Of a stretch of DNA of 64,000 nucleotides, positions 42,211 to 63,185 are shown piece by piece. Origin of the DNA: Aquilaria yunnanensis (Eukaryota > Streptophyta > Magnoliopsida > Malvales > Thymelaeaceae); NCBI GenBank assembly GCA_039654915.1, contig CM077597.1, positions 83,640,001 through 83,704,000 of the forward strand, in the 5' to 3' direction. Both the position numbers and the translations under genes were made by a program. Positions within the stretch are counted from its first letter, which is position 1, and the number at the start of each line of letters is the position of its first letter. The notes beneath the pieces were generated by a model, which was not told the DNA's origin, searched no databases, and saw nothing but the letters and a program-made list of their open reading frames with translations.

Positions 42211-43501
42211 TTAGGCATAGAATTTTTTCAAGGCCTCTGAGTGCCAAGTGTTTTTTAATTCTATGCCTTCGGCATCACCGAGCTTATAAACTCCTTTTCG
42301 TACTTCGGCAAGTACCAGGTACGGTCCTTCCCAATTTGCGCGAAGTACCCCGTGGGATGGCTTTCGGGGTGCAAATTCAGCCTTTCGAACAACGAGGTCT
42401 CCCTGTTTTATTCCCTTTGGCTTGGCGCGTAGGTTTATGGCTGCTGCTATTCTTTGCTGGAAAGCTTTTCTTCTCAGCTCGACTACTTCTCTGTGTTTGC
42501 CGACGAGGTCGAGCTTGGTTCTCAGGCCGAGGTCATTTCCACTTTCATCGAACACTTGGACTCGTATTGACGGTTGTACTACCTCGACAGGGATGATGGC
42601 CTCTGTGCCGAAGACGAGTGAAAAGGGCGTTTCCCCTGTGGTTCTTCGGGGTGTTGTTCGGTAGCTCCATAACACGCTTTGGAGTTCTCCTGGCCATTTC
42701 CCTTTTGCTTCTCCCAATCTCTTTTTCAGACCATCTTTTATGGTCCTGTTAGATACTTCCACCTGCCCATTACTTTGGAGGTGAGCTACTGGGGCGAAGT
42801 GCATTTTTGTCCCGAGGTCGCTAATGAACTCTTGGAATCCTTTGTCTATGAACTGGGATCCATTGTCCGCTACGAGTACCCTCGGTATGCCGAATCTGCA
42901 TACGATGTTTTTCCATACGAACTTCTGCACTTCTTTTGCCGAGATAGTTGTCAGAGGTTCTGCCTCGACCCATTTAGAGAAATAGTCAACTGCTACTACG
43001 CAGAACTTTATGCCTCCAGGCGCCATTGGGAGTGGCCCAATGAGATCTATGCCCCAAACTGCGAAGGGCCAAGGATAGTCTGCCGAAGTCACGAACTCCG
43101 AGGGTGTTCTTTGGATGTTCGCATGTCTCTGGCAACTACCACATTTCCGGACGAACTGCTTGGCGTCCTTTCTCAGGGTAGGCCAGAAGTATCCTCGGCG
43201 AAGTATCACTGCTGCTAGGGCGTCGGTTCCGATGTGCGAACCACAAGCACCTTCGTGAACTTCTTCGAGGATCATTTCAGTATCCTCTTCACTAACACAC
43301 CTCTGTAGTGGATTTGCATATCCTTGCCGATATAGTTCTTCTCCAATTAAGAAGAAACGTCCTGAGCGCCTTCGCACTTTTGCGGCTTCGCTGGGGTCTT
43401 CGGGGAGTGTGTTGGTTGCGAGATACGTTTTGATTGGTTCTTTCCATCCTTTCCCCGAGGTCTCTATGCTTAACACCGCGATGCTGGGGTGGCTTAGCAC
43501 T
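42211..43501 (-). pseudogene. Element C integrase part of pol (distal to element G)
   Basis: On the minus strand it reads from TEVLSHPSIAVLS through the HHCC zinc finger (HEGACGSHIGTDA...CGSC), the DDE core (GIDLIGPLPMAPGG, ADNGSQF, NGQVEVSNR) to the C-terminal KNTWHSEALKKFYA and stop. It is uninterrupted by itself but separated from its start by the 15.4-kb element G. It joins the piece at 58943 after the duplicated GCACT. Confidence 0.93.
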
Positions 43502-45990
43502 TGTGGCAACGTCGGGTTTTCGGGAGTCGCCACCAATCAGTTTTCTTAGGTCGATTGGTCACCTTAAAATTGGTCTGCGAGAGTTCGGGGATCGGGAGTA
43601 CGGTTACGTTAAAACAACTTTGTTAAAACGCCCAAAAATTGGCACCTTAGTTGATTTTAATTTTGTTTTGCTTTGCTTTTAAATAATTCTCAGTTAATTT
43701 TCAAAATTAGAAATTTTAACTGGATTAGTCGAAATGTGGATTTTTAAATTAATTAATTTGTATGAAATTTTATACTTCCGAACCATGGACTCTGCCGAGT
43801 CATTTGGACACGGAAGATTTTTGATTCCGAACCATGGACTCTACCGAGTCATTTGGACACGGAATTTGGTGAACTTTTAAATAATTTAATCCATATTGTA
43901 AATATGGATTTTTATCTTTTTTTTTTATTTAATTTATTTAATTAAAAGGGTGATATTTTTTTTAAACCGCAGATCCTGACGGATCATCCGGATATGTAAG
44001 TTGATTTAATTTATAGTTAATTATTTAATTCTTATTTTTATGGAATTAATTATTAGTTTAATTACTAATTCGTAATTCTTTTTGTTATAGAATTTTTAGA
44101 TTCATTAATAATCTAAAAATTTTTATTTTCTATATTTTTCTTTCTTTTCTTTCTTTTCCTTTTTATCTTTCTTATCTTATCTTATCTTTCTTATCTTTAT
44201 TATCTTTTTCTTATCTTTCTTATCTTTTTCTTATCTTGTTTTAATTTTCTTTTTTGTTTTCTTGTTTAATGAAAAATATTTATTATTTTAGTGGATTTAA
44301 AAGTTATATTTTAAATAAATCAGTAAAATATAAAGTCTTAATTTTCATGTATTTTTTTAAACAGGTTTTATTTTTATTTTTTTATTATTTTTACTGGATA
44401 AAAATAACTATTAAAATTAATTTTAACTTTTTGTTATCTTTAAAGAATTAAAAACATGTATATAAAAATAAAAATAATTGGCTTTTTTAAAAATAATTTT
44501 TATTAGCCTTAATAATTAATTACAAAATAATCTTCTTTTAATTTTCATTTATTTATTAATTAGTAAAGGGTAAAGGTGAATTAAATAAAAAAATTATATA
44601 AAGAAAAAAAATTAATAATAATAAAGTGGGGCTTTTTGGCCATCCACTTTAAAAATAATAATAAATGTTAGCAAAGTTAATTAAATTAATTGTTAAACAA
44701 CAATAATAAAAAGTTAGTCAAGTTAATTAAATTAATTAATTAACCACAATAATAAAAAGTTAGCCAAGTTAATTAAATTAATTAATTAACAACAGTAAAA
44801 AGTTAGCCAAGTTAATTAAATTAATTAATTAACAACAATAATAAAAAGTTAGCCAAATTAATTAACAACAATAAATAAAAAGTTAGCCAAATTAATTAAA
44901 TTAATTAACAACAATAAATAAAAAGTTAGCCAAATTAATTAAATTAATTAATTAACAAAAATAATAAAAGTTAGCCAAGTTAATTAAATTAATTAATTAA
45001 CAACAATAATAAAAGTTAATTAATTGTTAACAACAATTATAAAAGTTAGTAATAATGCAAAAATTAAAAGGTTAGTAACAATAATAGTATTAAAAGTTAG
45101 TTGTTAGTAAGTTAATAACAACAATAAAAAAAGGGGTTAGTAATAAACAAATAATAAACAAACAAGTAAAAATTAAAAGGGTTAGTAATTAATTCTGCAA
45201 GAATAAAATACAAAGTTAGTGACCAAAGTGAAAGAAATTGAAAAGATGAAGGATTAAATGAGAGTTGTACCCTTGATTTTAAATTCTGAATTCTGAGAAA
45301 TGGAAACAGATCGCGCGCGGGGGGGGAAGAAGATGGCTTAATCGTCAAAATGAAAAGTTTTGAGATTTTCTGGGGAAAGGAAGGAGAGCTAGGGACTAAG
45401 GCTGTAATTTTTTCTATTTTAAAAACGGAGCTCTAAGCTTTTCTTTCTATTTTTATCTGTGTTCAGCACAAAATTTGGGGGGCTATTTATAGAGGAAGTT
45501 TAGCTGAACTGTTGATGGATAAATTAATAAAAAATTTCAAACTTATCTCTTAAATTGGTAAAATGACAATTTTAGTCCTTTACGTCTCTCAGCCTCTGGA
45601 TAAGTTCCTGAAGCTTCTGATTTTGACAATTTTGTCGTTTTCTGTCAATTGGAGCCAAAAACGTCGGCAGGCTCAAAATTTTATGTGACAAACTACCAAA
45701 TGCTCCTGGAACTTTTAGAATTTGTCAATTTTTTTCCGAAACTTCTCAATTTTGTCATTTTTACCTCAAACTTTTAATTTTTTGTCATTTTTTTCATGAA
45801 ATTTTATTTTATTTCAAACATACACATATTCACACATATATCATTTTAAATCAAATTTTCACAAAAAAATATATTTTAAACTAATTAAATTTTTTTAATA
45901 ATAATAGTAATATATTTTTTTTTAAATTAATTTTTTTTAATAAAATTTTTTCAAAATTTTAAAACACCCGGACGAAATTGGGTGTCAACA
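43502..45990 (-). repeat. 3' LTR of element G
   Basis: Plus-strand ends TGTGGCAAC and GTGTCAACA. It holds a 2-copy repeat of CCGAACCATGGACTCTGC type (43788-43866), a TTATCTTTC-rich tract (44100-44240), an AT-rich array of about 45-55-bp units with AAGTTAGCCAAGTTAATTAA (44655-45030), and a TATA box (CTATAAATAGCCC on minus, 45480-45493). Short open frames in it are chance frames in AT-rich DNA. Confidence 0.97.
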
Positions 45991-46004
45991 GCTGCCCCCC
46001 TTTG
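45991..46004 (-). other. Polypurine tract of element G
   Basis: On the minus strand AAAGGGGGGCAGC directly precedes the 3' LTR, the usual place for plus-strand priming. It confirms that G runs on the minus strand. Confidence 0.9.
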
Positions 46005-46078
46005 CATGCTTCATGGGACATGATGTATGCAAAGTGGTTACCAAATTTCGTCCGGCTTAGGTAGGCATTGAGAATGTT

Positions 46079-46345
46079 CTCGCCGCCCAAACAGTAAGGT
46101 TTAAGGAAAGGTCCTTAAAACCTCTAACGATAGGAAAGCTCCTATTGTTGTAAGATGGACTGATTGATTGATTATTTGTTTGAGGCTAAGGAAAGGTCCT
46201 TAGAACCTCTAACGATAGGAAAGCTCCTATCGTTGTAAGATGGACTGATGGATTGATTGTTTGTTTTAGGTTAAGGAAATGTCCTTAGAACCTCTAACGA
46301 TAGGAAAGCTTCTATCGTTGTAAGATGAACTGATTGATTGATTAT
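46079..46345. repeat. Three hairpin-containing units of about 88 bp in G
   Basis: Units begin AAGGAAAGGTCCTTA and contain AACGATAGGA-AAGC-TCCTATCGTT, a 10-bp stem with a 4-nt loop that is perfect in the middle copy (46204-46240) and has one changed base in each of the other two. They end with a TTGATTGATT spacer shared with the adjacent 47-bp array. Confidence 0.9.
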
Positions 46346-47490
46346 TTGTTTTCGAGGCAAAGGTTCCATCCTTAAAACCTCGGATTGATTGATTGATCTC
46401 GAGGCAAAGGTTCCATCCTTAAAACCCCGGATTGATTGATTGATGTCGAGGCAAAGGTTCCATCCTTAAAACCTTGAATTGATTGATTGATGTCGAGGCA
46501 AAGGTTCCATCCTTAAAACCTCGGATTGATAATTGATCTCGAGGCAAAGGTTCCATCCTTAAAACCCCGGATTGATTGATTGATCTCGAGGCAAAGGTTC
46601 TATCCTTAAAACCTCGGATTGATTGATTGATCTCGAGGCAAAGGTTCCATCCTTAAAACCCCGGATTGATTGATTGATCTCGAGGCAAAGGTTCTATCCT
46701 TAAAACCTCGGATTGATTGATTGATCTCGAGGCAAAGGTTCTATCCTTAAAACCCCGGATTGATTGATTGATCTCGAGGCAAAGGTTCCATCCTTAAAAC
46801 CTCGGATTGATAATTGATCTCGAGGCAAAGGTTCCATCCTTAAAACCCCGGATTGATTGATTGATCTCGAGGCAAAGGTTCTATCCTTAAAACCTCGGAT
46901 TGATTGATTGATCTCGAGGCAAAGGTTCCATCCTTAAAACCTCGAATTGATTGATTGATGTCGAGGCAAAGGTTCCATCCTTAAAACCTCGGATTGATAA
47001 TTGATCTCGAGGCAAAGGTTCCATCCTTAAAACCCCGGATTGATTGATTGATCTCGAGGCAAAGGTTCTATCCTTAAAACCTCGGATTGATTGATTGATC
47101 TCGAGGCAAAGGTTCCATCCTTAAAACCTTGAATTGATTGATTGATGTCGAGGCAAAGGTTCCATCCTTAAAACCTCGGATTGATAATTGATCTCGAGGC
47201 AAAGGTTCCATCCTTAAAACCCCGGATTGATTGATTGATCTCGAGGCAAAGGTTCTATCCTTAAAACCCCGGATTGATTAATTGATGTCGAGGCAAAGGT
47301 TCCATCCTTAAAACCTCGATGATTGATTGAGTTCGAGGCAAAGGTTCCATCCTTAAAACCTCGGATTGATAATTGATTGTTTTCGAGGCAAAGGTTCCAT
47401 CCTTAAAACCCTGGATTGATGAAAATTGATTCTTTTCGAGGCAAAGGTTCCATCCTTAAAACCCTGATGATGAAAATTGATTTTGAGGCT
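46346..47490. repeat. Tandem array of about two dozen 47-bp units in G
   Basis: The unit is CGAGGCAAAGGTTCCATCC then TTAAAACCTCGGATTGATTG and ATTGATCT. It recurs every 47 nt, with 44-nt variants containing GATAATTGAT. CGAGG and CCTCG at the ends of the core, with AGG/CCT inside, can pair into a hairpin in every unit. Variants T/C at two sites alternate in blocks, a sign of unequal crossing over. It lies in the 3' untranslated part of the element; Ogre-type elements are known to hold such arrays there. Confidence 0.93.
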
Positions 47491-48026
47491 AAGGAGTTTT
47501 CCTTAGGACCTCGAGCGAAATTTATATGAAAGCAATTGAAATTGGAATAATTTTCTTCGAAAGTGTGAATTTTCATAATAGGCGAGCGCAAAGAATTAGG
47601 CTTCGATAAAATGAGTGAATCTTGATGATGACAATAACACTGACAAATTATGTAAAGGGAACGGATGTTTGGAATCAATATTCAAGGTTCATCTAATATT
47701 TTCTTCAGTAAATATAGATTCCCTTGTGAGATATGTCATCCGAATAAGGTTAAAGCTTAACTACCCCAAAATGTTATGCCTAGTAGACCTAATAGGATGC
47801 GTCTCAAGAGTAACAAAAATTACTCTTTACTCAGCCATTCCAACCTAAAGGCATTGTCGCATGGTTTTAATATCAGCATGGACGAAACTATCTTATAAAA
47901 AGAAATTCCCTGAAAAGAAAAACTGAAACGCGAAAGAAAATGCTGATAATAAAACTAAAGGACAAGAAAAACGGATCAGATCGCTTCTTTCTTCCACAAT
48001 ACTTCAACAGGGTGAGTAGAGGACCA
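47491..48026. other. Non-coding spacer between the array and the LOG-like gene
   Basis: AT-rich sequence without recognisable repeats or protein similarity. Short open frames on both strands (for example 47615-47848 plus) show no motif and were not accepted. It would hold the 3' untranslated region of the LOG-like gene. Confidence 0.6.
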
Positions 48027-48656
48027 TTATGGGAGTGAACTGGTCGGGAAAGACTGTCGTGTCCAGTCTATCTGAATCATTGCTGGATCTGGTTCAGGAA
48101 CAAAAGCTTGTATTTTATCTAGCAATTCTTCAGCAGTTGTTGCGGATATTATGATTCGCCGTGCCACTCTTGATATGAAATTCTTCTGCATAGCATAATC
48201 CATAAAAGCTATCAGACCTGTAAAGAAATTGTTAACATTCAAAAGCCCAATGGGTTTCTTATGCAAATTAAGTTGGGCCATGGAAGCAATTTGAAAGACT
48301 TCTCCCAATGTGCCAAAACCACCTGGTAGAGCGATAAAAGCATCAGCATTTAAAAGCATTTGTAACACACGCTCTTGCAAATTTTTAACCACTAATTCTT
48401 CTCCAATCGTGCCCCCAGAAATAAATTTCAGAGGTCCAGGGATAATACCCAGAACTTGACTTCCTCCTAGAGATGCTGCTGATGCTACACCTCCCATTAA
48501 TCCGACACTACCTCCTCCATAAACTAAATGTATTTTTCGCTCAGCTAATACTCTACCCAAATGGTTGGCTGCTTTTAAATACTCTTCATCTTTTCCAGGA
48601 AAAGCCCCAGAAAATACACAAATACTTCGGGATTTACGAGTTGGGGTTTTCTCCAT
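48027..48656 (-). CDS. Intronless LOG-like cytokinin riboside 5'-monophosphate phosphoribohydrolase carried by element G
   Basis: 209 residues, near the usual length of plant LOG proteins (about 210-220). LOG enzymes release active free-base cytokinin and ribose 5-phosphate from cytokinin nucleotides, in the cytosol and nucleus. Seen here: nucleotide-binding GGGSVGLMG at 47-55, PGGFGTLGE at 111-119 with the final Glu kept, and Arg96 at the conserved Arg position. Departures from the common plant pattern: the residue after that Arg is Val rather than Lys, and Gly replaces the first Glu of the usual EE pair. Plant LOG genes normally have several introns; this frame has none, which fits capture through RNA. 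The start MEKTPTRKSR was chosen because the longer frame to 48743 would run through the TATA box. It lies in sense with G and downstream of the virus-like genes. Activity is likely but unproven. Confidence 0.9.
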   Translation of the reverse strand: MEKTPTRKSRSICVFSGAFPGKDEEYLKAANHLGRVLAERKIHLVYGGGSVGLMGGVASAASLGGSQVLGIIPGPLKFISGGTIGEELVVKNLQERVLQMLLNADAFIALPGGFGTLGEVFQIASMAQLNLHKKPIGLLNVNNFFTGLIAFMDYAMQKNFISRVARRIIISATTAEELLDKIQAFVPEPDPAMIQIDWTRQSFPTSSLP

Positions 48657-48687
48657 TCCTATCCTTACCCTTGTGAGAAAAGAGGAT

Positions 48688-48696
48688 ATATTTATA
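48688..48696 (-). promoter_or_regulatory. TATA box of the LOG-like gene
   Basis: CTATAAATA on the minus strand lies 32-40 nt before the chosen ATG, implying a very short leader. The context resembles that in front of the two open virus-like genes. Confidence 0.6.
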
Positions 48697-48739
48697 GAGA
48701 TGAAGAGATAAGGCAATAATTTTATTTTCAAGAATGGAT

Positions 48740-49135
48740 ACATTATTGCCAGCTATTCACAGTAGTCACGAGTATGACTCTGGTCAGGTATGGGTACACT
48801 ATCGTTAAAAGAGGAGGAAAATTTTCAAAATAGCTGCTAGCATGTACAGTAGTCACTACTGTAGCTTACGTCAGGAGTAGGTACGTGATTGTTGGAAGAG
48901 AAGGAAAATTTTAAAAAGTGGCAGCTAGCATGTACAGTATCGTGACTATGGCTCATGTCAGGAGTGGATACATTATCGCCGAAAGGGGAGGAAGATTTCA
49001 AAAGCGACAGCTAGCACGTACAGTAATCGTGACTTTGGTTCACGTCAGGAGTGGATACATTATTACCAAAAGGGGAGGAAAATTTCCAAAAGCGACAGCT
49101 AGCACGTACAGTAATCGTGACTTTGATCCTCGTCT
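48740..49135 (-). repeat. About five tandem 86-88-bp modules upstream of the LOG-like gene
   Basis: GCTAGCA-GTACAGTA recurs at 48836, 48924, 49010 and 49098, with a diverged first unit near 48748. Each unit contains CGTGACT, CACGTCAGGAGT and GATACATTATT followed by an A/G-rich tail. A single diverged copy lies between virus-like genes 1 and 2 (about 49815-49900) and another between 2 and 3 (about 50605-50700). Position directly upstream of LOG suggests a regulatory role, which is inference. Confidence 0.8.
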
Positions 49136-49173
49136 TTCACTGGCTTTGCGTCCAGTAATGGCTTCAATGCTTT

Positions 49174-49722
49174 CTATGAATCGATGATTTGCATCCCATC
49201 CAGTTTTCTCACAAACTGGCAAACTGGGTCGTTTAAAGTCAGATTCCCAAGACTATAACGATCTCGTTCTTTTTGGAAAACTATCCATAATCCAACAACC
49301 TCAAATTGCACTATTCCGCAAGAATGCGCTTCAAGAACCTCTCGAATATCTTCCAGAGATTCCTTACGCAAGCCATTCTTGATGAATTTTATTCTATCAT
49401 TACGATTTCTGGTGATCACTCCTGGAGAACGACATTTATTGCCGCAAATCCACCATCCACAATTATGACAAACGCCTAGCCTCTTTGCTCTTCTTTTTTT
49501 GGCATAAGCGCTTTTACCAAAGCCGGGCATACGGGGAAAGAACGCTTCGGGAACTTCACCAGCTGAACGAACCTTAGCTTCAATTAGCCACCGCACATTA
49601 TCAGGGATGCCTTTGTGCATAAATACTCTGAATCGTTCACATCTAGCTTGATAAATCTTTTTAAGAACATTTATTGGGAAGGAAGGAAAATACTTTCGTA
49701 AGGCGGAAAGAGAAGACTCCAT
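49174..49722 (-). CDS. Virus-like cysteine-rich nucleic-acid-binding protein, copy 1 (in element G)
   Basis: 182 residues. The centre has a basic patch SAYAKKRRAKRLGVC, followed by a zinc-finger-like C-x2-C-x4-C-x3-C (CHNCGWWICGNKC) and then a segment RIKFIKNG. This order of Ser-x-Tyr-Ala, basic patch, Cys cluster and Phe-Ile-x-x-Gly resembles the small nucleic-acid-binding proteins of carlaviruses and vitiviruses (Betaflexiviridae), some of which suppress RNA silencing. The N-terminal 65 and C-terminal 70 residues have no match I can name. A TTG-initiated extension was rejected; ATG at 49722 matches copy 2 in position and length. It is intact and in sense with G. Family assignment is from memory of the motif pattern and is moderately sure. 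Confidence 0.7.
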   Translation of the reverse strand: MESSLSALRKYFPSFPINVLKKIYQARCERFRVFMHKGIPDNVRWLIEAKVRSAGEVPEAFFPRMPGFGKSAYAKKRRAKRLGVCHNCGWWICGNKCRSPGVITRNRNDRIKFIKNGLRKESLEDIREVLEAHSCGIVQFEVVGLWIVFQKERDRYSLGNLTLNDPVCQFVRKLDGMQIIDS

Positions 49723-49780
49723 TGATGAAGGAGGCAAAGAAAGAAATTAGTGATTGTAGGAAACGAAAATAACTAACACA

Positions 49781-49789
49781 TATTTATAG
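49781..49789 (-). promoter_or_regulatory. TATA box of virus-like gene copy 1
   Basis: CTATAAATA on the minus strand, about 60 nt before the ATG, in sequence homologous to that before copy 2. Confidence 0.55.
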
Positions 49790-49938
49790 TGATGAAAGGG
49801 ATAATGCGTTAATTACACTTACAGAAGCAAGTACATTATTGTCAAAAGAAAAGACAAATGACAGCTTATATGTACAGGAATCATGACCGTGGCTCTCATC
49901 TTCCACTGATTTATGTCCAGTAATGGCTTCAATGCCTT

Positions 49939-50487
49939 CTATAAGTCGGGGATTTGCTTCCCATCCAGTTTTCTTACAAACTGACAAACAGGGTCGTTTA
50001 AAGTCACATTCCCAAGACTGTAACGATCTTGTTCTTTTTGGAAAGTCCACCATAAATCCATAATTTCCCATTGCACTATTTCACAAGAATGTGTTTCAAA
50101 AGTTAATAGGATATCATCCAAAGATTCCTTACGCAGGCCATTCTTGATGAATTTTCTTTTATCTTCATGATTTCTGGAGATGTATCCTAAAAAGCGACAT
50201 TTAGTATTACAATTCCATCGTCCACATTTATGACAGACACCTAGCCTCTTTGCTCTTCGCTTTTTAGCATAAGCGCTTTTACCAAAGCCGGGCATACGGG
50301 GAAAGAACGCTTCTGGAACTTCACCAGCTGAACGAACCTTAGCTTCAATTAGCCACCGCACATTATCAGGAATGCCTTTGTGCATAAAAACTCTGATTCT
50401 TTCACATCTAGCAAGGTAGATCTTTTTAAGGACTTTTATTGGAAGAGAAGGAAAGTATTTTCGCAGGGTAGAAAGAGTAGAATCCAT
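49939..50487 (-). CDS. Virus-like cysteine-rich nucleic-acid-binding protein, copy 2 (in element G)
   Basis: 182 residues, the same length as copy 1 and similar throughout (MDSTLSTLRKYFPSLPIKVL start, basic patch SAYAKKRRAKRL, CHKCGRWNCNTKC cluster, C-terminal SLGNVTLNDPVCQF). Differences are concentrated after the Cys cluster, while the N-terminal and central parts are nearly unchanged, which hints at selection for the nucleic-acid-binding part. It starts 765 nt upstream of copy 1, so the duplicated unit includes its own upstream region. Open and apparently expressible; function inferred from motif only. Confidence 0.7.
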   Translation of the reverse strand: MDSTLSTLRKYFPSLPIKVLKKIYLARCERIRVFMHKGIPDNVRWLIEAKVRSAGEVPEAFFPRMPGFGKSAYAKKRRAKRLGVCHKCGRWNCNTKCRFLGYISRNHEDKRKFIKNGLRKESLDDILLTFETHSCEIVQWEIMDLWWTFQKEQDRYSLGNVTLNDPVCQFVRKLDGKQIPDL

Positions 50488-50567
50488 TGATGAGAGAAGA
50501 ATTTGAGAGATGATGGAAAGGAATTAGTTATTGAAGGAAACTTAGATAACCAACTGGAAGAACATGC

Positions 50568-50575
50568 ATTTATAG
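50568..50575 (-). promoter_or_regulatory. TATA box of virus-like gene copy 2
   Basis: CTATAAAT on the minus strand, about 81 nt before the ATG, in a context shared with copy 1. Confidence 0.5.
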
Positions 50576-50735
50576 CGATGAAATGGATAACGTGTCGATT
50601 ACACTTAGAAGAGCATGTACATCTGTCAAAAGAAAATGCAAACTTTTCCAAATATAACAAACTGTATGTACAGTAATTGTGACTGTGGCTCACATCTTCC
50701 ACTGGTTTTACGTCCAATAACGGCATTAACGGCTT

Positions 50736-51284
50736 CTATGAGTTGAGGATTTGCTTCCCATCCAGTTTTCTTACAAGCTGGCAAACAGGGTCATTTACAG
50801 TCAGATTCCCGGGACTGTAACGGTTTCATTCTTCATGAAAAATGCTCCATAAACCAAGAAGTTCACGTTGCACAGATCCACAAGAATGCGTCTCAAGAGT
50901 CAATTGGATATCATCCAACGAGTCCTTACTCAGGCCATTCTTAATGAATCGTATTTTATCTTCTCGATTATCAGAAATCATCCCTAAAGAACGACATTTA
51001 GTATTACAAGTCCACCGTCCACATTTATGGCAGACTTGTAACCTTTTCGCTCTTCGCTTTTTGGCATAAGAGCTTTTGCCTATACCAGGCATGTGAGACA
51101 CAAATGCCTCTGGGATTTCACCTGCCAGACGAACCTTGGCTTCGATTAACCACCGCACATCTTCAGGGATTCATTTGTGCATCAGAACTCTTAATCGTTC
51201 ACAGCGAACTTGGTAGATCTTTTTGAGAATGTTCATTGGGAGAGAAGGGAAATACTTTCGCAAGGCGGAAAAAGTAGGATCTAT
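50736..51284 (-). pseudogene. Virus-like nucleic-acid-binding gene, copy 3 (dead)
   Basis: Aligns over exactly 549 nt with copies 1 and 2 without net insertion or deletion, but the start codon is ATA, a TGA stands at about codon 39 (near 51171) and another TGA at about codon 154 (near 50825). The middle is open and keeps the SSYAKKRRAKRL basic patch and CHKCGRWTCNTKC cluster. No homologous TATA context is seen upstream. It is the copy nearest gag and probably the oldest of the array. Confidence 0.75.
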
Positions 51285-51440
51285 TTTCTAGGAGGAAGTA
51301 AAAGAAAGAAGGGGTGAAGGAATCAGTTATTATGGGCAACTGAGAGAACCGACTTGAGAGTCACGGAGTACCGTATCCGCCGTTTAACCGGAAAAGTGGA
51401 TCCTACTTCATTTTGATGTGATAGATATTTTTTATATTCC
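51285..51440. other. Short spacer upstream of virus-like copy 3
   Basis: It contains GAGTCACGGAGTACCG and no gene, and it marks the left limit of the repeat block that follows. Confidence 0.4.
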
Positions 51441-51810
51441 ATCGAGCTGACGTCGATCCAGTCCTCGATTATTGAATCCATTGTCCGCTTTTGACAAATT
51501 TTCAACGACAATATTTCTTGATGTCTGCCTTATCTTTGACTATCTCTTATCTTGGATGCTGCTAAGCTGGCATCAATCCTGTCCTTCCAGGTGTAGCCTC
51601 GATTATTGAATCAATTGCCAGGCTTTTGACAATATTGTCTACTTTATATTTTTTTTTTATATCTGCCTTATCCTTGGCTATAGCTATCTCTTATCTTGGA
51701 TACTACTAGCTGGCGTCAATCCGATCCTTCCAGGTGTAGCCTCGATTATTGAATCATTAGCCAAGCTTTTGACAATATTGTCTACTTTATTCTTGAATTC
51801 CTGATGCGGG
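51441..51810. repeat. Two to three diverged units of about 140-150 bp in G
   Basis: CTGGCGTCAATCCGATCCTTC, CGATTATTGAATC and TTTTGACAATATTGTCTAC recur in the same order near 51460, 51590 and 51740. No coding sense was found. Confidence 0.7.
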
Positions 51811-52739
51811 TTGGTCCCGCATATTAGCTGTGTATCCAGTGATAGATTGGTAAGAGCTGATGACATTGAGATCTCAGCTTATATTGTTGTAGCTGTGCCG
51901 TGGATGTGCTTCCCGTTTGGTCCTTGTTATGTAAAGGCTATGTATGCATGATATGAAATGCATGAATGCAGAGCATGTGTAACTAATGGCTTTTTTTTTT
52001 TTGTATGGATCTAATTCTTTATGTCTTTGTTTTATTGGATCCTCTTTGTGATGGCTTCTTGGACTATCATTGAATCTCTTTATGCTTTCCAGCTTTTGTT
52101 CGCTGCCTCAAAAGCCCAACTCTTTTCAAAATCCTCTTTCTTTGACTTGTTCTTTGAATTTTGGCCTCAATTTCTTTAAAGTTGGCCCGCCTCATAATTT
52201 ATATCTCTTTCGGGTACTCATCCATTGTCATGGATTTGATACCATCAAAGGCTTTACTTTCAATGTCTGCTTTGCCCCTTTTCTTGTGACCGTGCCGACA
52301 CTTACTTATTCCCATGTTATAATCTGAATGATTGCTCTTCCTTGAACTCATGTTTTGATCCATAAGACTTGCCCCCTTGTCTATTGAACTTCTTTGTTGG
52401 CGGTACTCCTCTTACGCTTCGTAGAGACTACTTTGCCCCCCTGAATATGGTGTTTATATGGATAGAGATATCATCTCGCCTTTGATTTAACAGAAGGTCG
52501 AGCATTTCTAGACCTTTGTGATGACACTTGATCGTAAATTTCTCTTACAAGAACCACATCTTATTAAAGAAAGACTCAAGCTATGTCCTCACTTTTAAGT
52601 CTACATACATTAATGAATAATGGTTTGGCCTTAAAGAAAAACTTTCATCAATTTGCAAAGCTTGACAAAGTAATTTACGGTCTTTGTTTTTAATTAAAAT
52701 ATCCTGCCATTCTTCCCTTTCCAACTCGAAGACATAAAC
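51811..52739. other. AT-rich non-coding stretch of G
   Basis: No recognisable gene or repeat; an 85-codon plus-strand frame at 52070-52327 has no motif and runs against the element. If this is where Ogre pol once lay, no trace is readable. Confidence 0.5.
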
Positions 52740-53215
52740 TGTGCAAGGCAATAAGGTAGAAACATGATTTACAATAATAGCCTTTTAACTGACTGAGGAT
52801 GATATCGAGAGGTAAATGTTAGGTGTGAGGAAAGTTAAGTTTGAATGTTTTTTTTTTTTTGTGGCAGTCTTTTAGCTGAATGAGAATAATATTAAGAGGT
52901 AAATATTAGGTCTAAGTAAAGTTAAGTTTAAGTGGTGTGAAAAAAGGGTCTTTTAATACTACTCATGAGCAGCATTAAATAAGGTAGAAACATGATTCAC
53001 AATGATAGTCTTTTGACTGAATGAGGATGTTAGGTCTGAGGAAAGTTAAGTTTAAGTGGTGTGAAAGAATGGTCTTTTAATAGTACTCGTGAGCAGTATT
53101 AAATAAGGTAGAAACATGTTTCACAATGATAGTCTTTTAGCTGAATGAGGATGATAAGTCTGAGGAAAGTTAAGTTTAAGTGGTTTGAAAGAAGGGTCTT
53201 TTAATACTACTCGTG
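52740..53215. repeat. Three to four units of about 120 bp in G
   Basis: GGTAGAAACATGATT, CAATGATAGTCTTT and GAGGAAAGTTAAGTTTAAG with GGGTCTTTTAATACTACTC recur near 52755, 52860, 52985 and 53105. Confidence 0.75.
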
Positions 53216-53394
53216 AGCAAATTTGATTATGATGAAAAACTCAATAGTGATGACCTCAAACTTGCCACTCTTTCCAGAAAGTTAAACCTCATCTGTTGCC
53301 CCCCCAACTATCGTGGTCTTTATGTATGCTTGGCTTGAAAGTTGCTTTTGTCTTCTAGACTGCCTTCGCAGGTTTTCAGTTTAGAATCCATAGC

Positions 53395-54080
53395 TCACTT
53401 GTTTTCTTTTTTTTCTTTTTTTTTTTTGCTCTAGTTTGAGCCCTTTTTTTCCTTTCTCTTTTTTTTGTTTTTGTTTTTGTTTCCCTTTCTTTTTTTTTTG
53501 TTTTTTTTTTGTTTTGTTTTTTTTTATATATATATATTTTTTTTGTTCCTTTTTTTTTGTGTGAGCTATGGTGATGACATATTTGATAACTTTCTTGAAG
53601 TGAGATGACTCAAGTGGCCTTGCTTGCTCGTGCTTGTTCTCAGTTCTTTTTGGTTTTGAATTTTCCCTTGTTGGCTTTTTGATGGAAGGGATGAACTTTT
53701 TCCTTTTCGGAGTTTTTGTTACAGAGAACCGAGATCATAGCCTTCTTGAAATGAGATGATTCAAGTGGCCTTACTTGCTTGTAATTGCTCTCAGTCTCTC
53801 TTTTTTTTTTGGTTTTGAATTTTCCCTTGTTGGCTTTTTGATGGAAGGGATGAACTTTTTCCCTTTTTTTTTTTTTGGAGTTTGTGTTATGGAGAACCGA
53901 GATCGTATCCTTCTTGAAGTGAGATGACTCAAGTGGCTTTATTTGCTTCTCAGTCTCTCTTTTTTTTTGGATTTTTTTTTTGGATTTTCCCTTTAATGGC
54001 TTTTTGATGGAAGGGATGAACTTTTTCTTTTCGGAGTTTGTGTTGCGGAAAACTGAGAACCTTTTTTTTTTTTTTGAGCA
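53395..54080. repeat. T-rich tract and three units of about 160 bp in G
   Basis: A long oligo-T/pyrimidine tract (53395-53560; purine-rich on the element's sense strand) is followed by three units with TTTTTGATGGAAGGGATGAAC, GAGAACCGAGATC and TGAGATGACTCAAGTGGC near 53660, 53830 and 53995. Spacer character; no gene. Confidence 0.8.
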
Positions 54081-54642
54081 TTTATGAGAATTGGGAAGCC
54101 ACTGAAGTCATTTAATATGAGAGCTACCTTGTTTGGAAACTAACCTCAAACTTCTTGCAAGGATGTTGATAACCACTGTGAATTCTTTTTGAGGGTTGAG
54201 GTGCAACATATGAAACCCTTCTTACTAGATTTGGCAGCACTTTCAAGATCATTACTATCAAATTTCCCTTAACTTTTTATTTTCACCCACGAGTAGTATC
54301 ATTTAGAAAGCAAAGTATGATAGCAATAATGGATAGTATAATGGAAAGAGTGTAAAAATGGAAAGTAGTAGAATGCACGCATCACATCTTTTTGTTGTAC
54401 CAGAAAAAGAATAGCAGGTGTCCATTTAACAAAGACTACACCCTAGATTCTGGACTAAATCTAGGAGATTTTTACTATTAGATTACTTTTGCAAGCTTTC
54501 AAAGATACAAGTTTATTCAAAGAATTCCCTGTCATTCGAAAATGTATGCGGACTGTTAGGTCAGATCTGACTTGGAGGCCTTCCAAAGTCAATGTAATTC
54601 TAGCTTGAAATCTTCACTTTTCAATTATCAATCACATCAGGC
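54081..54642. other. Non-coding spacer downstream of gag in G
   Basis: AT-rich, without readable pol remnants on the minus strand. This is where protease would follow gag in an autonomous Ogre element. Confidence 0.5.
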
Positions 54643-55467
54643 CTAGCAACTTGGACTTGGTTTTGCTTGATGAGGCGGCAATGGATTGTGGGTGACATTT
54701 GGCTCATCGGAAAAGTCCAACCACTTTGACTCGATTAATTGTTGAACTATACGCTTCAATGCCATGCAGTTTTCCAAGCCATGGCCTGGAACGCCATCAT
54801 GATATGGGCAGGTAATGTTAGGGTCATACCACCTTGGATATGGGGGTTTGAATGGCTTTGTAGGAATTGGACGGATAAATTGTCTTTCGATGAGTTTTGG
54901 GTATAACTCAGTATAAGTCATGGAAATTGGTGTGAAAACTTCTCTTGGTCTTGGTGCAGGTATTGGAGGAGTAGGAGCAGGTGGCCATGACTGATTAGGT
55001 CTGTTAAAAGGATAATTGTTGGGCCTATTGGAAGGATAATCATTGGGCCCATTGGCAAAATAGGATAGGCGAGGTCCGATAGCCACAGTATCCACGAGGG
55101 GAATCCTTCTTCTGCGTCCTATTTGTTGTACTTCGTCATCTTTTCTTCTAGATGGTCCTCCTCTTTTCATAGGATTATTAAAGGATTCAGTAATATTCCC
55201 AGTCCTAATCTCATGCTCGATTCTTTCTCCAGACATGACAATGTTAGAAAAATTAGTTGCCGAATTGCCAAGGTGTTCGTCATAATATAGGTACTTCAGT
55301 GTCTGGACAAACAAAGTGACCATTTCTCTTTCTGTCATGGGTGGCTGAACTTGTGCTTCTTGAATTGCGTTCGCCTTGATTAACTCGATCAATTGTCTCA
55401 TTTGTTCGGCCATACTTTCTATCTTGGACTCTATCTTTATGAGACGTCCTTCGATTTGTTCTGCCAT
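54643..55467 (-). CDS. Shortened Ogre-type Gag of element G
   Basis: 274 residues: MAEQIEGRL N-terminal coiled coil, the block PPMTEREMVTLFVQTL and IVMSGERIE known from the end of the Ogre capsid domain, a Pro-rich middle, and a CHHC-type knuckle CPYHDGVPGHGLENC followed by LKRIVQQLI and PNVTHNPLP. Autonomous Ogre Gag is much longer; the first half of the capsid core appears to be missing between residues 35 and 40. The frame is open, with no protease after it. It may still bind RNA or assemble with a partner Gag, or it may be kept only as packaging signal. Capsid function is doubtful. Confidence 0.85.
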   Translation of the reverse strand: MAEQIEGRLIKIESKIESMAEQMRQLIELIKANAIQEAQVQPPMTEREMVTLFVQTLKYLYYDEHLGNSATNFSNIVMSGERIEHEIRTGNITESFNNPMKRGGPSRRKDDEVQQIGRRRRIPLVDTVAIGPRLSYFANGPNDYPSNRPNNYPFNRPNQSWPPAPTPPIPAPRPREVFTPISMTYTELYPKLIERQFIRPIPTKPFKPPYPRWYDPNITCPYHDGVPGHGLENCMALKRIVQQLIESKWLDFSDEPNVTHNPLPPHQAKPSPSC

Positions 55468-56432
55468 TAATCTTATTTGGAGCCGAGTTGAATATCAGTG
55501 TCGAGGTCCAATTTTATCCTTTTAAAAGTAAGATATATTTTATTAGATCCTATGTGTATGTGATTGATGCAATGGATGCATGTAGGAAAAATGAGATTAT
55601 GTTTTTATCAGACTTTGTATGCACATGATTGATGTAATGGATGTATGCAACGAGATTATGTTTTTATCAGACTTTATATGCACGTGATTAATGTAATGGA
55701 TGTATGCGATGAGTGAATTTGATTATCCACTATCGTGGAACTTCAAAACTTTTAGTTGTCATTATAAAGACCAAAAAGTTAGTATAATTTGATGCGTGGT
55801 TTTAATGCATGAAGAATAATTGCACAAGAAAGATAAGGTTATTAATAAGTTAAATAGCAATTAACAACTCATGAAGTATTATGGAAAAATGAATTAAAAC
55901 CATAAATATAAGACACGAAGAAAATAAAAGTGTAGAGCAACAACATAGCATAACAAGGACGTGCTTATGGCGTTGGTAAAATGGTAGAAATTCTATGGTC
56001 AGTTCTATGGTTAAGTGGGGAGTTCTATATGCATAAGGTGGCTTATCAAAAAGGCAAGGGATAGTTCCCGAATCCCATCACTAAATTATAGTGATGGCCC
56101 GATTCCTTACCCTCTAGAGTTAATGTAAGGAATGGATTAATTCGAGTCATAGCTTTTCGTGGGCCCATGCAGAGACTAACCGTCTCAGGAGGCAATACAC
56201 TACTTTGCTACTTTGAAACCGGTGAAGGCTTGGAGACCATGGCCTCACAAGGACAACAACACCAATTCCGCTTAGAAAGAATTGTGTTCGATTTGAGAAA
56301 GCTCGGGTATAGAGCTTCATATTGTGAATGCATTATGCATGTTTAGAATAAGTAAATATAACATATAAATCCACATAATAAGCAAAGTAAATCAAAACAA
56401 ATCAACTTTAGGCTCGACTCACTAACGTGGAG
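55468..56432 (-). promoter_or_regulatory. Untranslated leader of element G
   Basis: It contains three units of about 65 bp (GATTGATGTAATGGATGTATGC with GATTATGTTTTTATCAGACTT) at 55555-55715 and a perfect hairpin CCATCACTA-AATTA-TAGTGATGG at 56075-56097. It holds no gene. A packaging or dimerisation role for the hairpin is a guess from its place between PBS and gag. Confidence 0.6.
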
Positions 56433-56450
56433 TCCCCAGCGGAGTCGCCA
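56433..56450 (-). other. Primer binding site of element G
   Basis: TGGCGACTCCGCTGGGGA on the minus strand, 3 nt (GCT) after the LTR end. I recall very similar sites, attributed to tRNA-Arg, in Ogre elements. It differs from the PBS of all other elements here. Confidence 0.9.
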
Positions 56451-56453
56451 AGC

Positions 56454-58942
56454 TGTGGCAACGTCGGGTTTTCGGGAGTCGCCACCAATCAGTTTTCTTA
56501 GGTCGATTGGTCACCTTAAAATTGGTCTGCGAGAGTTCGGGGATCGGGAGTACGGTTACGTTAAAACAACTTTGTTAAAACGCCCAAAAATTGGCACCTT
56601 AGTTGATTTTAATTTTGTTTTGCTTTGCTTTTAAATAATTCTCAGTTAATTTTCAAAATTAGAAATTTTAACTGGATTAGTCGAAATGTGGATTTTTAAA
56701 TTAATTAATTTGTATGAAATTTTATACTTCCGAACCATGGACTCTGCCGAGTCATTTGGACACGGAAGATTTTTGATTCCGAACCATGGACTCTACCGAG
56801 TCATTTGGACACGGAATTTGGTGAACTTTTAAATAATTTAATCCATATTGTAAATATGGATTTTTATCTTTTTTTTTTATTTAATTTATTTAATTAAAAG
56901 GGTGATATTTTTTTTAAACCGCAGATCCTGACGGATCATCCGGATATGTAAGTTGATTTAATTTATAGTTAATTATTTAATTCTTATTTTTATGGAATTA
57001 ATTATTAGTTTAATTACTAATTCGTAATTCTTTTTGTTATAGAATTTTTAGATTCATTAATAATCTAAAAATTTTTATTTTCTATATTTTTCTTTCTTTT
57101 CTTTCTTTTCCTTCTTATCTTTCTTATCTTATCTTATCTTTCTTATCTTTATTATCTTTTTCTTATCTTTCTTATCTTTTTCTTATCTTGTTTTAATTTT
57201 CTTTTTTGTTTTCTTGTTTAATGAAAAATATTTATTATTTTAGTGGATTTAAAAGTTATATTTTAAATAAATCAGTAAAATATAAAGTCTTAATTTTCAT
57301 GTATTTTTTTAAACAGGTTTTATTTTTATTTTTTTATTATTTTTACTGGATAAAAATAACTATTAAAATTAATTTTAACTTTTTGTTATCTTTAAAGAAT
57401 TAAAAACATGTATATAAAAATAAAAATAATTGGCTTTTTTAAAAATAATTTTTATTAGCCTTAATAATTAATTACAAAATAATCTTCTTTTAATTTTCAT
57501 TTATTTATTAATTAGTAAAGGGTAAAGGTGAATTAAATAAAAAAATTATATAAAGAAAAAAAATTAATAATAATAAAGTGGGGCTTTTTGGCCATCCACT
57601 TTAAAAATAATAATAAATGTTAGCAAAGTTAATTAAATTAATTGTTAAACAACAATAATAAAAAGTTAGTCAAGTTAATTAAATTAATTAATTAACCACA
57701 ATAATAAAAAGTTAGCCAAGTTAATTAAATTAATTAATTAACAACAGTAAAAAGTTAGCCAAGTTAATTAAATTAATTAATTAACAACAATAATAAAAAG
57801 TTAGCCAAATTAATTAACAACAATAAATAAAAAGTTAGCCAAATTAATTAAATTAATTAACAACAATAAATAAAAAGTTAGCCAAATTAATTAAATTAAT
57901 TAATTAACAAAAATAATAAAAGTTAGCCAAGTTAATTAAATTAATTAATTAACAACAATAATAAAAGTTAATTAATTGTTAACAACAATTATAAAAGTTA
58001 GTAATAATGCAAAAATTAAAAGGTTAGTAACAATAATAGTATTAAAAGTTAGTTGTTAGTAAGTTAATAACAACAATAAAAAAAGGGGTTAGTAATAAAC
58101 AAATAATAAACAAACAAGTAAAAATTAAAAGGGTTAGTAATTAATTCTGCAAGAATAAAATACAAAGTTAGTGACCAAAGTGAAAGAAATTGAAAAGATG
58201 AAGGATTAAATGAGAGTTGTACCCTTGATTTTAAATTCTGAATTCTGAGAAATGGAAACAGAGGGCGCGCGGGGGGGGAAGAAGATGGCTTAATCGTCAA
58301 AATGAAAAGTTTTGAGATTTTCTGGGGAAAGGAAGGAGAGCTAGGGACTAAGGCTGTAATTTTTTCTATTTTAAAAACGGAGCTCTAAGCTTTTCTTTCT
58401 ATTTTTATCTGTGTTCAGCACAAAATTTGGGGGGCTATTTATAGAGGAAGTTTAGCTGAACTGTTGATGGATAAATTAATAAAAAATTTCAAACTTATCT
58501 CTTAAATTGGTAAAATGACAATTTTAGTCCTTTACGTCTCTCAGCCTCTGGATAAGTTCCTGAAGCTTCTGATTTTGACAATTTTGTCGTTTTCTGTCAA
58601 TTGGAGCCAAAAACGTCGGCAGGCTCAAAATTTTATGTGACAAACTACCAAATGCTCCTGGAACTTTTAGAATTTGTCAATTTTTTTCCGAAACTTCTCA
58701 ATTTTGTCATTTTTACCTCAAACTTTTAATTTTTTGTCATTTTTTTCATGAAATTTTATTTTATTTCAAACATACACATATTCACACATATATCATTTTA
58801 AATCAAATTTTCACAAAAAAATATATTTTAAACTAATTAAATTTTTTTAATAATAATAGTAATATATTTTTTTTTAAATTAATTTTTTTTAATAAAATTT
58901 TTTCAAAATTTTAAAACACCCGGACGAAATTGGGTGTCAACA
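56454..58942 (-). repeat. 5' LTR of element G
   Basis: 2489 bp, the same length as the 3' LTR. I found one difference in the TTATCTT tract (near 57113) and a two-base difference before GCGCGCGGGG (near 58263). All internal repeats are identical, including the AT-rich array, and the right flank is GCACT. Confidence 0.97.
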
Positions 58943-61900: not shown

Positions 61901-63185
61901 CCGTCGGACACCGGGCTTGCTGGCTGGACCCTTCGCCACGAGCGTGAATATGGTCAGCCTTCAGTCCAGTCATTCTCAGCTCTTCGGCTGTCATATGTTG
62001 TTCAGCCCTTCGGTAGAATTCTCCCAGGGTGTCCGGGGGATCTTTGGAGAATTCATAAAACAAGTGTGAATCCCTCCGGAGGCCCCTCGTCATGGCGAGG
62101 ATGCGGATTTCGGGATGAAAGTCCGAAACACTGAGGGCCTCTCTGTTGAACCTCTCGACATAGTCACGGATGGTCTCCCCGTTTCTTTGTGCTATGTCAA
62201 ACATCTGGACGGGCATCTTCGCCGTCGGCTTGCTCCCAATGAACTGTTGGGTGAACGCTGTGGAGAGCTCCTGGAACCCCCTGATGTTTCCGGGAGGCAG
62301 GGAATTATACCAGGCAGTTGCTGGTCCTGCGAGGGTGACTTCAAAGCACTTGCAGAGTGTAGCGTCATCAGCCCCGTGTAGCACCATGTTGCGTTTGTAC
62401 TTTGTTAGGTGGGCCTGCGGATCAGTCCGACCCTCATAGGTCTCTAGCCGAGGTAGCCTGAAGTCATTTGGCATGGCCGCCTCAACCACTGTTCGGGCGA
62501 AAGGAGTTTCATCTCCAGAGACGGTTTCAGTTAGCCTGGCCCAAACAGGTTTACGTGCCACCTGCTGTTCCACTCTCTCCAGTCTTGCCAAGACTTTCTC
62601 CAGGAGGAGCGTAGCACTGGGCTCCTCTTCCTGGTGCTTGGAGGTTCTTGGGTAAAAGGACGGTTGCCGTCTCTTCGGGGAGCGACTTCGGTACCGAGGT
62701 GAGGGGGACCTGGCCTCCGGCGACAAACTTCTTCTGGACGGGACTTCGGGTCGTTCAGACCTCGCTCTTTCCGCCAGCCGTGCTCCGAGGGGCAAGTTAT
62801 CTGTCGAGGACTCTTCCCGTGGCTCCCCACTTCCCGAGCTATGATGGGTTGCCCTTGGGCTTTTCGGCCGAGGTCGTGCTGGCGAAGTGGGTTTTTGCGC
62901 CTGGGCTAGCTGCGGCCACCTTCGGTCTATTTGTTATGTCATTTCAGCCACAATAGACCTCTGAAAGTCTCGTAAAAAACCCATGGTGATGACGAGAGGG
63001 CGTTCCTCTTCAGGCAAGGAAGTCTCTAGGGGACTTTGTTCGATGGCTGGTTGGGTCTCAAGCGCGGACGGGGACTTCGGGAGTCCTTTGTCCTTCGAAC
63101 GCCGAGTTTCGACAACAGCTACCTGGGAGTAGTTTCCCATAGACGGCGCCAAATGATGCCCCAAGGCATCTTCGTTTGCTGTCAT
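58943..63185 (-). pseudogene. Element C gag-pol, proximal part (gag to RNase H)
   Basis: It starts at ATG 63185, 32 nt inside the LTR (MTANEDALGHHLAPSMGNY). A stop (TAA for Gln) follows EMT at about 62934; the frame then stays open for gag, knuckle (CQFHRDHGHDTEDC), protease (LDGGSNADVLF), and RT with YVDD, to a TGA at 59895 (Arg in others), and again through RNase H to the GCACT junction. Only two stops and one insertion break it, so RT and protease are well preserved. The distal integrase piece is at 42211-43501. Confidence 0.94.
63136..63153 (-). other. Primer binding site of element C
   Basis: TTTGGCGCCGTCTATGGG on the minus strand, immediately after the LTR; one base (A for G) differs from A and B. 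Confidence 0.85.

Follow-up and report, generated by a model that had tools for sequence, protein, structure and literature searches.

The window, a 64,000-nucleotide stretch of Aquilaria yunnanensis contig CM077597.1, contains a complete LTR element on its minus strand (43502-58942). Paired LTRs, a target site duplication (TSD), a primer-binding site (PBS), and a polypurine tract (PPT), as proposed in the initial annotation, were all located. The cargo comprises three units of a carlavirus-type nucleic-acid-binding gene (NABP) and one LOG ORF, all in sense orientation and with Pfam matches above the curated cut-offs. NABP1, NABP2, and NABP3 are abbreviated N1, N2, and N3, and NABP3 is the first of the array. 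The features are as follows.

43497..43501, no strand: left TSD copy, GCACT, identical to 58943-58947 (plus strand)
43502..45990, minus: 3' LTR, 2489 bp, 3 mismatches to the other LTR
45991..46003, minus: PPT, AAAGGGGGGCAGC, G-rich
46101..47463, minus: 3' untranslated tandem arrays (85 bp x 3; 47 bp x 24)
48027..48656, minus: LOG-type cytokinin riboside 5'-monophosphate phosphoribohydrolase ORF, 209 aa, no introns, with the PGGFGTLGE motif retained
48690..48702, minus: CATCTCTATAAAT box before LOG, promoter-like
48807..49125, minus: 87-bp repeats, 3.7 copies, between NABP1 and LOG, with two TGACG motifs
49174..49722, minus: NABP1, 182 aa, intact, with a basic stretch and a C4 zinc finger
49782..49794, minus: CATCACTATAAAT box before NABP1, TATA-box context
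49939..50487, minus: NABP2, 182 aa, intact
50568..50580, minus: CATCGCTATAAAT box before NABP2, TATA-box context
50650..50736, minus: conserved noncoding trailer of the first NABP, 70/86 identical to the presumed Athila-type relative L001
50739..51284, minus: NABP3, broken in this copy (start codon absent, two in-frame stops)
51323..51395, minus: conserved noncoding leader of the first NABP, 62/73 identical to L001
54643..55467, minus: shortened gag-like ORF, 274 aa
56432..56450, minus: PBS, TGGCGACTCCGCTGGGGAC, TGG-type, 3 nt behind the 5' LTR
56454..58942, minus: 5' LTR, 2489 bp, 3 mismatches to the other LTR
58943..58947, no strand: right TSD copy, GCACT (plus strand)

Two of the three differences between the LTRs are adjacent, and the LTR termini read TGTTGACACCC...GCCACA. 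The PBS, which we take to be of the tRNA-Arg type, lies at the same place in two other copies (L019 and L030), with one base changed. The element interrupts another Gypsy pol gene, whose RNase H ORF (58911-59894) and integrase ORF (42211-43536, ending at the junction) flank it. The layout of gag plus four sense cargo genes was thus as first described, but not all four genes are intact, the first NABP being broken here.

No reverse transcriptase (RT) or integrase match was found in the interior of the window element (tblastn, E 0.01) with 33 other window ORFs of at least 200 aa and the two flanking pol ORFs as queries, a set that included four long ORFs with RVT_1, RNase H, and/or integrase domains. 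Neither was present in any of 25 further copies fetched from the genome; an RT-bearing query matched the flanking element and the L001 integrase, yet 0/25 of these copies. The absence of pol claimed for this element extends to these copies, and the element does not carry the RT and integrase of its own that mark an autonomous element. An ORF of at least 400 aa spans the gag region in 16 of the 25 other copies, and both the window element and its sisters have retained a C-terminal gag portion of their own. Apart from P0241 (90%), the gag relatives found were only from Gossypium australe (29% over 80%) and Lathyrus/Pisum (48% over 31%). The capsid part is 26 to 29% identical to window Gypsy ORFs in 7/25 copies; Retrotrans_gag exceeded its cut-off in L016, and Asp_protease_2 did so in L028 and fell below it in L014. 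We tentatively assign the gag and protease motifs of the sister copies to Ogre. Based on gag, protease, and structure in these copies, the family is probably Tat/Ogre-type, and the original "Ogre-like" label is plausible.

Searching the 842-Mb genome gave 40 scored LOG places, all ~100% (99 to 100%) identical, and 40 scored gag places, all at 99 to 100% identity; these places lie on C1 to C8, and both counts are lower bounds. The fetched copies (20 picked by LOG match and 5 by gag match) were hand-picked among the best LOG/gag matches, with copies lacking both outside the sample and intactness possibly biased upward. In all 25, gag comes first, then NABP(s), then LOG. The initial annotation had named copies without the cargo as evidence against it; within this part of the copies, gag and cargo occurred together in 20/20 LOG-chosen and 5/5 gag-chosen cases, and this linkage rules out a later local insertion of the cargo. 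In three other copies, the LTR pairs are 99.96, 99.88, and 99.81% identical (over 2210, 847, and 2049 bp compared), these LTRs being mostly ~89 to 97% identical to the window LTR, and the one other copy with both ends read has the TSD ATTAG. The near-identical LTR pairs and the cargo linkage bear out the view of a young element that moves with its cargo. The window element belongs to a non-autonomous family that is recently mobile and present in high copy number, with a conserved accessory module that as a rule consists of one LOG gene and three NABP genes in tandem.

The three NABP units are spaced at 765 and 797 bp and pass the Viral_NABP and Carla_C4 Pfam cut-offs (23 and 20.9 bits), with 27.4 and 22.3 bits for N1, 26.4 and 27 for N2, and 29.6 and 29.7 for the N3 piece. 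Among the other copies, NABP1 is intact in 24/24, NABP2 in 22/24, and NABP3 in 17/24 (broken in 7/24). Near-invariant columns are rarely hit in the window genes (N2, 2 vs. 12.6 expected; N1, 5 vs. 15.1 expected). The dS among the three tandem cassettes is 0.42 to 0.83, so the array is far older than the window insertion. An AlphaFold model of NABP2 (61 sequences; mean pLDDT 63, pTM 0.34) was of too low quality to be used in a fold search. In eight further ORFs of the element, nothing scored above the Pfam cut-off; an endogenous carlavirus was ruled out, no other viral gene (replicase, TGB, coat protein) occurring in these ORFs. Viral contigs yielded no relatives when scanned with NABP, with LOG, and with the NABP alignment, and a 23-mer of the NABP leader had no exact match in them. 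A 16-mer of the leader matches two viral contigs, a length too short to carry meaning alone.

A homologous NABP follows the integrase, in an env-like position, in L001, which we take to be Athila-type from its integrase motifs. Between L001 and NABP2, dN is 0.235 and dS 0.942 (bootstrap ratio, 0.15 to 0.37), and the leader is more conserved (85%) than the coding sequence (75%). The NABP unit and its noncoding flanks are homologous between the two elements. The 3330 bp of L001 contain no LOG and no Rfam match, and the window element has no significant match to an Athila-type integrase upstream of NABP. Rhamnella P0082 likewise joins a stretch 70% like the L001 integrase to a NABP. Athila-type and Ogre-type elements probably swapped the module through recombination. 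A structured RNA in the leader was considered and dropped, its fold stability not exceeding expectation (z, -0.02 and -0.54).

The LOG protein belongs to the LOG fold family (TIGR00730, 149 bits vs. a cut-off of 96) and misses the NCBIfam equivalog cut-off (98 of 300 bits). It retains the PGGxGTxxE motif and the invariant R98 and E121 columns, which we take to be catalytic residues, and columns that do not vary across 20 other LOGs took 2 hits vs. 16 expected. The ORF is intact in 22/25 other copies and broken in 3/25. Its Populus relatives are annotated as LOGL10. The C-terminal LxLxL tail, present in most relatives among the matches listed, is missing, and the tailless LOG of this lineage may differ in action. 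The NABP and LOG match lists (120 matches listed for each) have seven contig sizes in common, three of them within 2 to 20 kb (2128, 4511, and 8723) vs. 0.17 expected; one LOG entry (1514; P0204) was left out and 1091 was entered twice, with the set of at least 2 kb unaffected. These common sizes suggest, but do not prove, that NABP and LOG lie together on one contig.

Both the NABPs and LOG are under purifying selection. Over pairs of copies with dS > 0.05, which are not independent, the median dN/dS was 0.24 for LOG (47 pairs; range, 0.12 to 0.28), 0.15 for N1 (122 pairs; 0.05 to 0.33), 0.16 for N3 (206 pairs; 0.03 to 0.45), and 0.39 for N2 (145 pairs; 0.05 to 0.91), with some N2 pairs reaching 0.91. 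The copies are also mosaic; in 170 of 325 pairs, one gene is at least 99.5% identical and another at most 92%. In the other copies, a TATA-box context precedes LOG in 25/25, N1 in 23/23, N2 in 22/24, and the first NABP in 0/25, and it occurs nowhere else in the window on either strand. The boxes before LOG, NABP1, and NABP2 are candidate internal promoters, which would drive NABP2, NABP1, and LOG from starts just past the CATCNCTATAAAT boxes. The first NABP would be expressed from genomic or spliced RNA via its conserved leader. The inner genes have no assigned polyadenylation signal.

We lean toward the reading that this is a trans-mobilized, probably Tat/Ogre-type non-autonomous family whose NABP and LOG module would make host cells permissive. 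An autonomous relative would supply RT and integrase in trans. By analogy with carlavirus relatives, and given the zinc finger beside a basic stretch, the NABP would be nuclear and act in silencing suppression and/or transcriptional activation, and LOG would release active cytokinin. Together, the two would favor cells that are dividing and weakly silenced, giving new insertions a route to the germline.

Captured NABP and LOG genes might instead ride in a successful family without helping it, with LTRs and gag alone behind the burst. Plant LTR retrotransposons are well known to capture genes (PMC7264820), and broken copies, such as those of NABP3 (the window and 7/24 others) and LOG (3/25), could still spread in trans; we nevertheless consider mere riding unlikely, given the median dN/dS of 0.15 to 0.39, an N1 intact in all 24 other copies, cassettes (dS, 0.42 to 0.83) far older than the insertion, and a NABP unit conserved between the Athila-type and window elements. 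The NABP could also be chiefly a structural component or one that handles element RNA (nucleocapsid-like, or acting in RNA export or translation) and not a host effector, with LOG as a separate passenger or helper. That a small basic zinc-finger protein sits in an env-like position behind the L001 integrase, under a leader more conserved than its coding sequence, suits such a part, to which we give a rather small chance because the window and sister copies already keep the C-terminal part of their own gag, up to three diverged NABPs are retained, and viral relatives target the host (PMC12172455, in the portion on these proteins). The LOGL10 annotation in Populus would fit a hormone gene reservoir in which selection reflects benefit to the host rather than to the element. 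To our knowledge, NABP has no host role, and it is constrained much as LOG is; with the genes also sitting in young mobile elements present in many copies, host benefit appears very improbable.

Extending the reading of a permissive NABP and LOG module, we tentatively propose a retrotransposon lineage with a pathogen-like effector strategy. Its co-regulated LOG and nuclear zinc-finger module would reprogram host cells (division, weak silencing) and raise transposition, and across eudicots would have moved between elements of the Athila and Ogre types; some of its LOGs have a conserved C-terminal LxLxLxL tail (EAR-like, possibly TOPLESS-binding). If the module works as proposed, transposable elements directly manipulate a host hormone, in the manner of gall-forming bacteria, and retrotransposons make use of silencing suppressors of the RNA-virus type. 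Transfer the other way, in which the carlavirus cysteine-rich protein was taken from retrotransposons, also becomes testable. Plant annotation also calls for caution, as some "LOGL10" gene models may be transposon genes.

Two Athila-like elements with LOGL4-like extra ORFs were reportedly described by Steinbauerova et al. in 2011. The combination had initially been thought unknown; Gypsy elements of Citrus and Populus with LOG (YgdH) domains have already been published (Alvarado-Marchena et al. 2022, PMC9289625, which also cites the 2011 work), whereas our literature search found no NABP genes in such elements, tandem array, internal TATA boxes, selection, or Athila connection in print. Those elements, like the window element, are LTR retrotransposons with a LONELY GUY domain ORF. 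Their consensus set was built on RT-containing regions, whereas the window family is RT-less and has NABPs; the main text of that paper contains no NABP or carlavirus terms, and its sections on these elements mention neither a tandem array nor selection nor a LOG-bearing family devoid of RT. The same paper, in its account of giant orchid Gypsy elements, reports an AlkB RNA demethylase ORF, an enzyme gene kept by a Gypsy element and of a type that Betaflexiviridae have as well, and proposes that it counters host control; those elements differ in having another, single enzyme and no hormone gene and in being found via RT. As characterized in the relevant part of PMC6317226, Ogre/Tat elements with extra ORFs have similarly long LTRs, 5-bp TSDs, and expanded noncoding regions with tandem repeats, and their prominent extra domain is the plant mobile domain, unlike the window cargo. 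The count of extra ORFs there begins at 250 codons and would leave out both NABP (182) and LOG (209).

Viral relatives of the cysteine-rich protein act on the host (PMC12172455). Carlavirus NABP/CRP relatives have a C4 zinc finger adjoining a basic stretch, as do the window NABPs, all three of which exceed the Pfam cut-off. The window NABPs are unlike the viral ones in being 182 aa long, retrotransposon-encoded, and tandem, with a conserved C-terminal part past the Pfam matches. TR-GAG elements consist of LTRs plus gag only. Like TR-GAG/LARD-type elements, the window element has LTRs and gag, is devoid of RT and integrase, and has presumably moved in trans; unlike them, it carries a conserved four-gene accessory module besides gag, which sets it apart from TR-GAG.

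The element interrupts the pol gene of another Gypsy element and is delimited as follows.

43502-58942, minus strand: element with paired LTRs, LTR termini, PBS and PPT all present, flanked by the TSD GCACT

The 2489-bp LTRs differ in pairwise comparison at only 3 sites, two of them adjacent, which at the plant rates that we assume corresponds to <0.1 million years. The interior carries, all in the element sense, a 274-aa gag remnant, three carlavirus-type nucleic-acid-binding (NABP) units, and an intronless LOG (cytokinin riboside 5'-monophosphate phosphoribohydrolase) ORF; tandem arrays (47 bp, 24 units; 85 bp, 3 units) precede the 3' LTR. Similarity and Pfam searches of this interior detected neither RT nor integrase. 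No blastn relative of the element occurs in the rest of the window. Positions 1-43500 and 58943-64000 consist mostly of Gypsy-type DNA, in which many segments, up to 7.6 kb long, are repeated at 73 to 98% identity.

Searching the source assembly (842,125,765 bp; window at C5:83640001-83704000) with the LOG segment gave 1,186 first-look candidates, and all 40 scored places, including the window, showed ~100% identity; with gag, there were 2,368 candidates, and all 40 scored places, again including the window, showed at least 99% identity. We read 25 copies, hand-picked from these lists, each of which holds 39 places besides the window: 20 came from the LOG list and 5 from the gag list. The order gag, NABP(s), LOG was found in every one, with three NABPs in 23 copies, two in one, and one in another. 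An RT-bearing query, which detects the flanking element and, weakly, the integrase of the separate Athila-type locus L001, detected neither RT nor integrase in any of the 25 copies over the stretches read. The gag region contains an ORF of at least 400 aa in 16 copies and a short, window-like ORF in 9, and 7 of the 25 show capsid-type gag similarity to the window's Gypsy ORFs. A Pfam scan of four ORFs in or next to this region placed Retrotrans_gag above the cutoff in copy L016 and an aspartyl protease above it in L028 and below it in L014. LTR pairs of three other copies are 99.81 to 99.96% identical over the pieces compared, and the one copy with both ends read has the TSD ATTAG. The initial annotation had described a recently active element without RT and integrase, which the presence of a family in the genome and its near-identical LTR pairs bear out; its proposal that the cargo moves with the element likewise holds, given the linkage of gag, NABP(s), and LOG in all copies read.

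Intact ORFs were found for N1 in 24/24 copies, N2 in 22/24, LOG in 22/25, and N3, the first of the array, in 17/24. Median dN/dS values between copies, from nonindependent pairs, were 0.15 for N1, 0.16 for N3, 0.24 for LOG, and 0.39 for N2 (range, 0.05 to 0.91). In 170 of 325 copy pairs, one gene is at least 99.5% identical and another at most 92%, a mosaicism that template switching between copackaged RNAs would give. A promoter-like TATA-box context, CATCNCTATAAAT, lies within 150 bp upstream of LOG (25/25 copies), nonfirst N1 (23/23), and N2 (22/24) and upstream of the first NABP in 0/25; a leader takes its place there, with a 17-nt core exact in 21/25 copies. On either strand of the window, it occurs only before LOG, N1, and N2, and the regions upstream of LOG and NABP1 are 76% identical across 66 bp. 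The finding is real, and its extent exceeds the earlier description: this is a recently active family lacking RT and integrase, with an accessory module under selection.

The window NABPs match Viral_NABP and Carla_C4 above the Pfam cutoffs, and a KKRRAK cluster adjoins the C4 finger. The first NABP is broken in the window copy; NABP1 and NABP2 are both intact (dN between them, 0.127; dS, 0.423). Public proteins gave 159 NABP matches, and all 120 listed carry PF01623 (read by eye), from plants including Xanthoceras, Populus, Acer, Rhamnella, Orobanche, and Citrus. Each window NABP has a separate counterpart: P0001 for N1 (88%), P0032 for N2 (86% over 126 aa), and P0002 for N3 (98% over 114 aa). 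The Citrus gene model P0114, with Pfam matches below the cutoff, has an NABP (55% identity) followed by LOG sequence, as in the window. Among the matches listed, NABP and LOG share three source-contig sizes (2 to 20 kb), and the gag relative P0241 shares both the short form and the end of the window gag.

When the NABP alignment was run against contigs of prokaryotic genomes, it matched a single locus, L001 (DAIEQH010000041.1, 3,330 bp), filed under a Nomurabacteria MAG but evidently of plant origin, which probably represents contamination of a public bacterial genome by a plant retrotransposon.

L001, 104-2344: integrase ORF (rve, H2C2), followed after ~200 bp by an intact NABP in sense orientation

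We take L001 to be Athila type from its integrase motifs. Identity between its integrase and the one encoded by the flanking Gypsy element is 30%, and Rhamnella P0082 joins a stretch 70% identical to the L001 integrase to a following NABP. L001 1665-2435 and window 51395-50650 are 73.6% identical, with matches in the leader (62/73 positions), CDS (408/546), and trailer (70/86), so the NABP unit traveled with its noncoding flanks. The L001 NABP differs from NABP2 by a dN of 0.235 and a dS of 0.942, and no LOG was found in the 3,330 bp.

The window LOG scores 149 bits with TIGR00730, contains PGGFGTLGE, and has 46% identity to Arabidopsis At2g37210 and 47% to At5g11950. It retains 51 of 56 columns invariant across 20 related LOGs; when the C-terminal tail is excluded, 53 columns remain, of which 2 are altered, against 16 expected. 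Of 7,829 public matches, 120 were listed, among which 111 have PGGxGTxxE and 35 bear Reevesia pubescens names across 16 chromosome labels (read by eye), as expected of a dispersed repeat. An EAR-like repression motif, LxLxL, mostly after a K/R-rich stretch, lies within 3 residues of the C terminus in 100 of the 120 (P0124-P0240); it is absent from the window LOG and from P0121, its nearest relative among the matches listed. To our knowledge, such a tail is unusual in a cytokinin enzyme, and canonical LOGs are without it. Populus P0197 and P0219, annotated as LOGL10, resemble the retrotransposon LOGs in tail and clade. Annotation of the cytokinin gene family may be inflated by transposon LOGs. 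The window also has 87-bp repeats between NABP1 and LOG (48807-49125) and, in the stretch preceding LOG, two TGACG motifs, a feature of as-1-type enhancers.

In the available part of PMC9289625, Gypsy consensus sequences with YgdH/LOG domains are reported for two Citrus species, and for Populus if unfiltered, and an earlier report is cited; terms for NABP are absent from it. In the corresponding part of PMC6317226, extra ORFs were tallied only from 250 codons, a minimum at which both cargo genes would be passed over. No description of an NABP/LOG-carrying family was found in the accessible portions of PMC7264820 and PMC11963269, and titles and abstract beginnings in the open-license literature included no recognizable report of NABPs in retrotransposons. 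Action of the accessory module on the host is the interpretation that best fits the parts, rather than a demonstrated fact. According to the portions available, carlavirus CRPs suppress silencing, one being a transcription factor that induces hyperplasia (PMC12172455), and a basic localization signal adjoins the zinc finger (PMC8742542).
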